DNA of 64,000 bases. Origin: Fragilariopsis cylindrus CCMP1102. Lineage: Eukaryota; Bacillariophyta; Bacillariophyceae; Bacillariales; Bacillariaceae. Location of the stretch: the NCBI GenBank assembly GCA_900095095.1, contig FMBT01000419.1:58260-122259 (forward strand), in the 5' to 3' direction. The notes under the pieces were generated by a model, which saw nothing but the letters and a program-made list of their open reading frames with translations, did not search any database and had not been told where the DNA came from. The position numbers and the translations under genes are program-made. Below, piece by piece: positions 7,453 to 10,690 of the stretch (positions are counted from its first letter, which is position 1; every line of letters begins with the position of its first letter).

Positions 7453-9261
7453 ATGACTGCTTTATCAGCGTGTGATGAAGAAACATTTTCATGTGAGATG
7501 CCTACTGCTACTGCTACTGCTACTACTGATCATTATGATTTTTGTATTATCGGATCAGGTCCGGCAGGTCTTGCAACATTATCAGCGTTGCGTGAATCGT
7601 ATACATTAGGTGATGGTATTCATTTAAATGACTTAAATATCCAGAGAAATCAGATAATATTAAATCGAGAAACTAAGAATAATCATCATCAAAGAAATAA
7701 ACGAATTTGTGTTATTGATCCACATCCAAATTGGATGGATGGATGGAAGAATAATTTTGATCGTCTTAGTATTAAATTCTTACGTTCACCGGTTCTAGCT
7801 CATCCTGATGCATTTGATCCAAATTCATTACTAGCATACGCATATACTCATCATCGACAACATGAACTACAAGAAAGTGATTGTTCTCATTCTAAAAAAC
7901 TACAATCATTAGGTGAATCACAAATTGGACTTTGGGATTTACCATCAACATCATTATTTAATGATTTTTGTGTTGATTTATCTAAACGATTACAGCATGA
8001 CTATATTTGTGGTAATGTTGTTGATATTAAAGATTATAGTAATATCAAAGACAATGTAGATAATGGAGAGGCTCTTCCATTCCAATTGACTATCGATAAG
8101 AAGGGTAAAACAAGGAAAATTACAGCGAATGCGGTAATTTTGGCTTTAGGTACAATCGGAAATCCTATAATTCCTCGTGGTTTAAAATTGGTACCTAATT
8201 CTAAGGTATGCCATTGGCAACAACTTGACGTACACAAAGATAAAATACAATATTGTAAGAATGTGTTAGTCGTTGGTGGTGGATTAACAGCAATCCAAAC
8301 TGCACAGTTTGCACTTGCTAACAGTAAAAACACAACAACAAAGGTTATATTATGTAGTCGTCGTCATATTCAAGAAAAGGCATTTGATGTTGCAAATTCT
8401 TGGTTTGATCGTCGACACACAAATAGACATATAAGTAATTTTTATCATTCTTCTGTAGAGGAACGATTACGTATATTGAAAGATGCAAGAAATGGTGGTA
8501 GTGTCCCATCAATGTATATGAATGCAATTCAACCATACATAAAGAGTGGACATCTTGAGATAATTGAAGGTGGTGAAGTTGTATTCAATCGTATGACGAT
8601 TGATGATGATATTGATGAAGAAAGGAATGATCCTTCATCATCATCGAGAGTTTCCGTTACTATAAATCAACAAGGAGAATTCAATAACAAACCATCATCA
8701 TCATCTGTCAATACTTGCAACTCGTCTGCTGAATTTGAATTTGATTTAATATTACTAGCAACGGGTGTTGAACCAGATTGTAATGTACATCCATTAATCC
8801 AACAGGTTCAGAAACGTTATCCAATTGATACTGTTGGTGGCTTTCCATGTATAACAGAAGATTTACAATTCCCATGCCGTGCAAAGTTATGTGTTGTTGG
8901 TAGTTTATCAAGTTTAAATACAGGTCCTGATGCTGCAAATTTAATGGGAATTAAGCGTAGTGCAAATATTGTCGCTAATACATTAGATTGTCGTTCCTGG
9001 TTACGTAATGAAGGTGGGAATAATGAAGATTATGATGATGACGATGAAAAAGGGACAAAGAATGGACGACGCAGTAGAGGTGGCGGCGGTGGAGTACTAA
9101 CAAATCAATTTCGACACTTACAATGGAGTGACGATGAAAGTAGTGACTCCGACTCTTCATCATCATCATCATCATCATCGTCGTCGTCGTCGTCGTGTTC
9201 ATCAGATAGTGACCAGGATGAAGAACAAGATTGCCACCGAGATCTACCAGTTGTTGATTAA
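7453..9261 (+). CDS. FAD/NAD(P)-binding oxidoreductase, monooxygenase-like
   Basis: A 602-aa single-exon protein with two Rossmann dinucleotide folds. The first glycine motif (CIIGSGPAGLA, residues 31-41) should bind FAD; the second (VLVVGGGLTAIQ, Gly275-277) should bind NAD(P)H. The LLATGVEPD motif (about 434-442) is the usual ATG hinge of flavoprotein monooxygenases. The stretch WMDGWKNNFDRLSIKFLRSP resembles lysine/ornithine N-oxygenase and OSGIN-type proteins, so a flavin-dependent hydroxylase or reductase is likely; the substrate is unknown. No signal peptide or membrane segment is evident, suggesting a soluble enzyme. The last ~85 residues are acidic, Gly- and Ser-rich and probably disordered. 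Met16 is an alternative start; the first ATG is used because nothing decides between them. Confidence 0.75.
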   Translation: MTALSACDEETFSCEMPTATATATTDHYDFCIIGSGPAGLATLSALRESYTLGDGIHLNDLNIQRNQIILNRETKNNHHQRNKRICVIDPHPNWMDGWKNNFDRLSIKFLRSPVLAHPDAFDPNSLLAYAYTHHRQHELQESDCSHSKKLQSLGESQIGLWDLPSTSLFNDFCVDLSKRLQHDYICGNVVDIKDYSNIKDNVDNGEALPFQLTIDKKGKTRKITANAVILALGTIGNPIIPRGLKLVPNSKVCHWQQLDVHKDKIQYCKNVLVVGGGLTAIQTAQFALANSKNTTTKVILCSRRHIQEKAFDVANSWFDRRHTNRHISNFYHSSVEERLRILKDARNGGSVPSMYMNAIQPYIKSGHLEIIEGGEVVFNRMTIDDDIDEERNDPSSSSRVSVTINQQGEFNNKPSSSSVNTCNSSAEFEFDLILLATGVEPDCNVHPLIQQVQKRYPIDTVGGFPCITEDLQFPCRAKLCVVGSLSSLNTGPDAANLMGIKRSANIVANTLDCRSWLRNEGGNNEDYDDDDEKGTKNGRRSRGGGGGVLTNQFRHLQWSDDESSDSDSSSSSSSSSSSSSSCSSDSDQDEEQDCHRDLPVVD

Positions 9262-9397
9262 CATAGAGTAATTTCGCTACTGAAGTGACTATTGCTTCTC
9301 TACTTCTCTACTGCCAACTTATAAAAGGAGAAACGAGTTATATACTAATGATTTGTTACTGTATGGGACTATCTAAATATTCCATGTGTTTACTATT

Positions 9398-9479
9398 ATT
9401 ATTCATATGTAGAAATTATCATTGGTCTGGCAATACGAAATTGCCGTCATTCACGATATACGTAATACATAAAAATAAT
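9398..9479 (-). other. Structured element in the 3' region of the candidate selenoprotein
   Basis: On the minus strand, about 100 nt after the stop codon, two arms (9466-9479 and 9398-9411) can pair over 14 positions with one mismatch and a G-U pair. They enclose a perfect 6-bp hairpin (9429-9445, GGCAAT/ATTGCC). ATGA and AGA flank the hairpin, echoing the SECIS quartet. The hairpin is too short and lacks the apical AA of known SECIS elements, so function is uncertain. Confidence 0.3.
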
Positions 9480-9576
9480 TCCAATTATTAGTACGCTGTT
9501 GTAATCTGTACTCTAGTTCAACAATTAGATTACTATTGTTGCTGCCTGTTGCTGAAATATTTGCACGATATATTGA

Positions 9577-10103
9577 TTACGACATAATACTTTTTTTTAG
9601 TCCTTCTAATGATGCATTGATTTCTTTCATTGCATTTATTCTTTTGGATTTATATTTTGAAAATAAATCTTGTTGTCTTCCTGACCAAATTTCTACTGCA
9701 TCATCATCATCACTGGTATGTGCAGTAATAATTACTCGTATTGGATATTTATTAACACGATTTTCAATTATTTGTGAGGAAGGAAATACTTTTTTCACGA
9801 CGTCAAACGCTGTATTGTATTCCTGTTTCCCTCCATCTCAGTTCTTGGACTATATATAGCATAATATATAATAATAATTGTATTGAAGTAGAAATAACGA
9901 CACATCAAATGATAGATAAAAGCGATATGGCAAGTTAGTCAGCAACACGACTGATTTGTAACGACGAGTGCTTTTGATAATATAGCGTAAGTACGGTATA
10001 CATACAGTACAGTAATACAATTGTTGTAGAGAAACATGATTTATTTATACATCAAAAATCTTACATAAGTAATCGTAAATTTTGGAGCGACAGCAGAACT
10101 CAT
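9577..10103 (-). CDS. Small Rdx/SelW-like thioredoxin-fold protein, candidate selenoprotein (two exons)
   Basis: Exon 1 (10065-10103) reads MSSAVAPKFTITY and stops exactly at a GTAAG donor. A 215-nt intron (9850-10064) ends in a TATATATAG acceptor, and exon 2 (9577-9849) continues in phase 0, giving 103 codons. Exon 2 opens S-K-N-TGA-D-G-G. With the preceding Tyr this is Y-S-x-x-U, the layout of the Y-C-x-x-U redox motif of selenoprotein W/H/T (Rdx) proteins, with Ser at the resolving-Cys place. Seventeen residues later comes FP, as in SelW, then IRVIITA and EIWSGRQQDLF. I infer TGA = selenocysteine. Alternatives: an acceptor after CAG at 9826, which skips the TGA, or a nonsense mutation. No canonical SECIS was proven, though a structured 3' region exists. 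The role would be a small redox protein. Confidence 0.5.
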
Positions 10104-10483: not shown

Positions 10484-10643
10484 CATTATTTTCAGTTTAT
10501 TTTTGTTACTAGTAATTTGATCTCTATTCGTACCGTAGTACAATCATGATCGTGCAAAATTTTGGTCGCTTGTAAAATATACGGACATGTAAACGAATAC
10601 CGGTATAACCGGAACAAATATAAAATCTGATCTAATCATTTGA

Positions 10644-10690
10644 CAGACAAACAAACAAACAAACAAACAAACAAACAAACAAACAAACAA
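10644..10690 (+). repeat. (CAAA)n microsatellite in the 5' leader
   Basis: About eleven copies of a 4-bp unit just before the ATG at 10715. A reading frame crosses it, but only from a TTG, so it is treated as 5' leader. Confidence 0.8.

Follow-up and report, generated by a model that had tools for sequence, protein, structure and literature searches.

A two-exon gene with an in-frame TGA

The window, by which we mean the whole 64-kb stretch of DNA analysed here, belongs to an assembly (G000) of 67.9 Mb in 818 contigs, which its introns and genes mark as eukaryotic. On its minus strand, from 10103 to 9577, lies a two-exon gene with a GT-AG intron in phase 0 and a frame of 103 residues that holds a single TGA. 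The parts of the gene are the following:

10065..10103, minus strand: exon 1, with its ATG at 10103; it encodes MSSAVAPKFTITY, ends in TAT before the donor GTAAGA, and is the same in the copy on contig C513
9850..10064, minus strand: intron of 215 bases, GTAAGA...TATATAG, with a branch-like CTGACTAAC at 9942
9577..9849, minus strand: exon 2, reading SKN, the TGA, DGGKQEYNTAFDVVKK...KKSIMS and the stop (9577); its first codons are TCC AAG AAC TGA GAT GGA GGG
9838..9840, minus strand: in-frame TGA, the candidate selenocysteine (Sec) codon, found in both copies and aligned with the second Cys/Sec column of the Rdx profile

Following SKN and the TGA, exon 2 is translated as DGGKQEYNTAFDVVKKVFPSSQ. 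The sequence-only reading had claimed a two-exon gene with a GTAAG donor, phase 0 and an in-frame TGA, and these elements are indeed read in the sequence and kept in a second copy of the locus on contig C513 (L002/L003), where the flanking genes and their order are unchanged. Since the dS of these flanking genes between the window and C513 is about 0.09 and 0.04 (some repeat codons of the neighbouring gene at 10640 being counted more than once in its figures), the C513 copy is probably the other haplotype. Searches of the genome itself listed no paralogues beyond this copy. In C513, exon 1 is identical, the GT and AG of the intron are conserved and the TGA is kept together with its unchanged surroundings, SKN-U-DGGKQ, while the protein encoded by exon 2 is 88% identical. 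The TGA is thus part of a coding frame that is conserved between two copies within one genome.

Whether the TGA reaches the mRNA depends on the acceptor. Between the branch-point-like CTGACTAAC and the proposed acceptor, a distance of 93 and 95 bases in the two copies, the sole AG is that of the acceptor itself. In the absence of an earlier AG, the first-AG rule favours 9850 and hence an mRNA containing the TGA. Two more phase-0 acceptors are present, of which 9823 alone would leave the TGA out of the mRNA. If the intron ended at this AAACAG, the TGA would be removed and the locus would encode an ordinary TGA-free protein rather than a selenoprotein. We regard this as unlikely. The 9823 acceptor is indeed in phase 0 in both copies, a complete SECIS was not found (see below), and the product spliced at 9823 scores 5.0 bits with a eukaryotic Rdx profile, against 5.2 bits for the protein with the TGA masked (4 of 1000 shuffles as good in each case), so that this profile favours neither splice. 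On the other hand, counting from the first AG past the branch-like site, 9823 comes as the fourth further AG, and a purine-rich stretch precedes it. Moreover, the 27 bases that would be skipped (9849-9823) differ between the copies at one site, which is synonymous in the gene frame, whereas identity over the final 100 bases of the intron is 87.8%. The use of 9823 would also remove nine residues between the first strand and Phe-Pro, and it would leave the conserved SECIS core described below unexplained.

The comparison of the two copies bears on the coding capacity of the locus in several ways. There is no indel in the 261 aligned bases of exon 2, compared with nine gap events in the 215-base intron, and neither an indel nor a second stop in the 87 compared codons of either copy. 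Conservation is high in the first 33 codons of exon 2 (dN 0.027); overall dN/dS is 0.7, and across codons 34-87 it is about 1.1. Given that the 15 substitutions are distributed 7/4/4 by codon position, with no excess at third positions and a pN/pS of 0.71, they do not prove selection on the protein. Codon use supports the gene frame: of 1175 wrong-frame pieces, 3.7% attain its score of 0.192, and 42% of 235 pieces from the 16 long open frames of the window, the same frames on which the score was trained, are as low.

An antisense frame of 107 codons (window 9536-9859, plus strand) overlaps exon 2, and it is open in the C513 copy too over the 261 compared bases.

We considered whether the locus might owe its appearance to chance, with no translated gene at all, or with a gene unrelated to Rdx or selenium in which the TGA is a plain stop or the opposite strand is the coding one. 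The antisense frame, open in both copies, would fit such a view, as would the absence of Rdx matches in databases and the marginal Rdx signal presented in the next section. Yet the codon use of the antisense frame is not gene-like, scoring 0.03 and -0.01 in the two copies versus 0.19 and 0.21 for the gene frame, and its pN/pS is 1.19; in addition, the splice sites are conserved and exon 2 is free of indels. We therefore hold a chance origin to be very improbable.

Marginal resemblance of the protein to Rdx and SelW

The motif that follows the first strand is S-K-N-TGA. With respect to the CxxC/CxxU motif, the second position fits and the first is a Ser, in both copies, which bears out the earlier proposal that Ser stands in place of the resolving Cys. 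In the Rdx profile alignment, the TGA falls into the second Cys/Sec column and the Ser after Tyr takes the place of the first Cys. The companion claim, that the TGA occupies the Sec place of an Rdx-family protein, holds as far as this column is concerned, but membership of the family is weak: Pfam gave no match, and a local alignment by HHalign did not rise above shuffled sequences.

More precisely, neither the window copy nor the C513 copy was matched by PF10262 (cut-off 22.6 bits) at E<=10, while human SelW and the SelT of the same genome, used as positive checks, scored 58.2 and 44.9 bits. NCBIfam returned no Rdx match and a single weak match to ribosomal S7 (E 0.065), and the PDB sequence search likewise no Rdx match and a weak one to mL52 (E 1.5). 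None of the 20 pattern matches in a scan of viral contigs was a relative.

We also compared the protein with Rdx sequences of our own collection. A scan of genome contigs for Rdx kept 80 of 135 relatives; as all of these were Vibrionales by their titles, the set was widened with Rdx sequences sampled across more phyla, where 47 of 249 genomes matched and 30 loci were kept (27 sequences used from 29 loci tried). Against a home-made Rdx alignment, 135 of 300 shuffles aligned as well as the candidate in HHalign local mode; in global mode the count was 15 of 300, and masking the TGA residue raised it to 144 of 300. With hmmsearch run without filters, the numbers of shuffles per 1000 that scored as well were 11 for the bacterial profile, 3 for the mixed and 0 for the eukaryotic one, and 22, 10 and 4, respectively, when the TGA was given as X.

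The four-sequence eukaryotic profile yielded 7.1 and 9.6 bits, equalled by none of 1000 shuffles (941 scored) and by none of 624 natural open-frame pieces (540 scored), or by one of the 624 once the TGA was masked. The outcome depended on the profile. As many as 26 of the 624 natural pieces did as well with SelW alone, 23 with C17orf37 alone, 5 with SelW plus C17orf37 and 2 with SelT alone, compared with none for the four eukaryotic sequences and none for SelW, C17orf37 and the same-genome SelT combined. The candidate therefore stood above all natural null pieces with only two of the six small Rdx profiles; the best scores, 8.6 and 10.7 bits, came from the combined SelW, C17orf37 and SelT profile. 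Taken as a whole, these comparisons leave kinship with Rdx/SelW marginal, although the protein may plausibly work like an Rdx selenoprotein. Since it falls below the Pfam cut-off and lacks the first Cys, we do not assign it to the family.

The likeness to SelW/Rdx proteins (PF10262) lies in the size and in the position of Tyr-x-x-x-Sec and, by eye, in a late Ile-Trp-Ser and a Lys-rich end. The spacing from the TGA/Sec to Phe-Pro is 17 residues in the candidate and 16 in human SelW. The candidate differs in lying below Pfam and NCBIfam detection, in the Ser for the first Cys and, again by eye, in a longer segment before Ile-Trp-Ser. A change at the first position of CxxU has a parallel: a survey of 137 algae (PMC7539508) describes for Ostreococcus lucimarinus a SELENOW in which both motif positions are Sec (UxxU), and cites an earlier one from amphioxus. 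In both cases the first CxxU position is altered in a SelW, but there Cys is replaced by Sec, whereas the Ser of the candidate cannot bond Se within the motif. A text search gave no occurrence of the word SxxU in that survey; literature searches for SxxU led to PMC1794560, PMC3994087 and PMC13188914.

Another locus of the genome (L006/L007, contig C723) carries two Rdx-type stretches in a single open frame of 552 residues, with CPGC in one and CPKQ in the other.

Selenium genes of the genome and a short hairpin 3' of the gene

The genome contains 13 tRNA-Sec matches over the cut-off, with a TCA anticodon in all four loci checked. Most eukaryotes have one or two tRNA-Sec genes. The matches (L009-L016) are spread over contigs C69, C547, C56, C138 and C678, three each on four of them and one on the fifth, and some of these contigs may represent pairs of haplotypes. 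A TGA stands at the known Sec site, as placed by the site motifs of SelT, GPx and MsrA, in at least five other genes, namely SelT (L005), three GPx genes (L018/L019, L020 and L024/L025) and MsrA (L034). None of the four matches to PF13911 (SelU type) in the genome had a TGA, and both matches to PF08806 were below the cut-off. The organism thus possesses tRNA-Sec as well as selenoprotein genes beyond the candidate.

Six of these loci, representing five genes (GPx L018/L019, GPx L020, GPx L024, MsrA L034 and SelT L005), served as controls in the search for a SECIS. A first scanner, run on one control (SelT), found no element; a second, given six control loci, and a third, given seven, overlooked some of them and returned elements mostly unlike the final ones. 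All three required an apical AA or CC; the structure-led scan that took their place dropped this requirement. It recovered 4 of 6 controls at first; L024 followed when the scan was begun at its stop codon, and L005 after the span limit had been raised from 90 to 95. At strict settings it placed a SECIS-like element in 6 of 6 control loci, with the core [GT]A-ATGA-[CT], 9-10 pairs in helix I and 8-26 pairs in helix II, located 82-185 nt downstream of the stop. The upper stems of some of the SelT, GPx and MsrA elements are very long. With loosened settings, L018, L019 and L020 each gave a second match lacking the common core, which in L020 scored slightly better than the common-core element; at strict settings a second match was kept in L018 alone. 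Rfam reported no SECIS near the candidate gene, nor any in the genome among the 133 of 1400 candidates scored; because its SECIS_1 model found none of the six control loci, this silence is uninformative for the candidate.

In neither copy did the strict settings, positive for all six controls, reveal a complete SECIS up to 2 kb from the candidate stop. When the threshold for helix II was lowered to 5-6 bp, and only then, a hairpin appeared within a conserved block:

9395..9475, minus strand: 3'-UTR block, near-invariant between the copies, with 2 small indels and 1 substitution, all in predicted loops
9417..9458, minus strand: SECIS-like hairpin, TATCGT GA ATGA C GGCAAT TTCGT ATTGCC A GA CCA ATGATA

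The sequence-only reading had pointed to the minus strand of 9250-9576 as the place to look for a SECIS, and this interval does contain a shortened SECIS-like hairpin, if not a complete SECIS. Running from 9458 to 9417, it has a helix I of 6 bp, a helix II of 6 bp (5 in the other copy) and a loop of 4-5 nt, and its ATGA at 9450 is 126 nt downstream of the stop, against 80 nt in the other copy. Its core, GA-AUGA-C / A-GA, matches the SECIS core of the genome, and it carries GAATGACG, an 8-mer also present in GPx L024. Its helix II reaches about half the normal length, and it has no apical AA.

The surrounding block is the best-conserved stretch 3' of the gene. It starts 101 and 57 nt past the candidate stop in the two copies and matches two places in the genome only, these being the two copies themselves. 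A wider match (9360-9483) shows 85% identity between them, and the sequence nearer the stop and past about 9350 scarcely aligns. The block stays near the candidate gene in both copies, while the end of a convergent monooxygenase-like gene lies about 100 bases off in the window and about 740 in C513, which has some 640 additional bases in this interval (window 9262-9394 compared with L003).

How often such a hairpin arises by chance was estimated in two ways. With the loosened settings, both strands of the 64-kb window gave eight elements with the core, the candidate's included. In 1000 dinucleotide shuffles of 9262-9576 (315 bases), 24 had a match with any core, one had a match with the genome's core and none was as good as the candidate, a result that is partly after the fact since the settings were loosened once the hairpin had been seen. 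Folding energies did not set the region apart from shuffled sequences: for 156 nt, z was 0.25 and 124 of 200 shuffles were as good, and for 111 and 102 nt the corresponding counts were 21 and 28 of 200. In C513, the outermost helix seen in the window copy is changed.

With eukaryotic SECIS elements the hairpin shares helix I, the AUGA/GA core and a position in the 3' UTR; it differs in a helix II of 5-6 bp, a loop of 4-5 nt and the missing apical AA. Published search rules (PMC2375036) ask for 10-13 nt between the quartet and AA and 15-39 nt between AA and GA, and by those rules the hairpin fails, with 19 nt from TGA to GA and no apical AA. Our literature search on minimal SECIS and helix II found no paper on a minimal SECIS. 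Within the same genome, SelT (L005) offers the closest comparison, being likewise an Rdx-type gene that has a TGA in its frame and, on its 3' side, a SECIS-like element whose core is GA-ATGA-C; unlike the candidate, it exceeds the Pfam cut-off and has a CVSU motif and a long SECIS.

Possible readings of the UGA

The frame has gene-like codon use, both copies retain its TGA, tRNA-Sec and other selenoprotein genes are present in the genome, and a SECIS-type core lies at the right distance; all this is best accounted for if the UGA is read as Sec, or was so in the recent past. The short helix II leaves either of two readings, a minimal SECIS that works or a SECIS in decay.

According to the latter, the gene would be that of a former selenoprotein, its SECIS stripped of the apical AA and of the upper portion of helix II; the UGA would now stop translation after 16 residues, apart perhaps from rare readthrough, and the gene would be on the way to being lost. 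Helix II is short in both copies while the core and helix I are present, no other SECIS was found within 2 kb of either copy, and the dN/dS values, with about 1.1 in codons 34-87, would fit this view. Against it stand the 3' block, which is the best-kept stretch 3' of the gene, the good conservation at the start of exon 2 (33 codons), and a frame without indel or second stop throughout the compared codons of both copies. We consider decay somewhat unlikely.

We lean towards present use of Sec, ahead of decay, of splicing past the TGA and, last, of chance. Our preferred reading, to which we would give a probability of about 0.45, is that of a real single-locus two-exon gene of Rdx/SelW-like type whose UGA is read as Sec under the direction of an unusually short SECIS. 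The UGA would most likely be read as selenocysteine to give a Tyr-Ser-x-x-Sec centre, and the recoding would be directed by the hairpin some 126 nt past the stop codon, by means of helix I, the AUGA/GA core and the first 5-6 bp of helix II. The product would presumably be a small thioredoxin-like (Rdx/SelW-like) protein with a redox role in which Ser replaces the resolving Cys, and the short hairpin would have to be functional as it stands. In its most specific form, with a working minimal SECIS (helix II of 5-6 bp, no apical AA) recoding a UGA that lies 16 codons into a SelW-like gene with a Ser-x-x-Sec centre, we hold the proposal to be doubtful.

If the hairpin works, the upper part of the SECIS, that is, the long helix II and the apical AA, would be dispensable, with consequences for our understanding of signal recognition by SBP2 and the ribosome. 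It would also bear on how selenoproteins are found in genomes, as the published search rule (PMC2375036) would reject this hairpin. The gene is, moreover, of a kind that Pfam misses. If the hairpin is a relic, the locus would represent the loss of a SECIS caught ahead of the loss of the coding frame.

Finally, at about 10640-10690 of the window the open frame of the neighbouring gene contains a tandem run of TTTG, encoding TNKQ repeats, which looks longer in the C513 copy.
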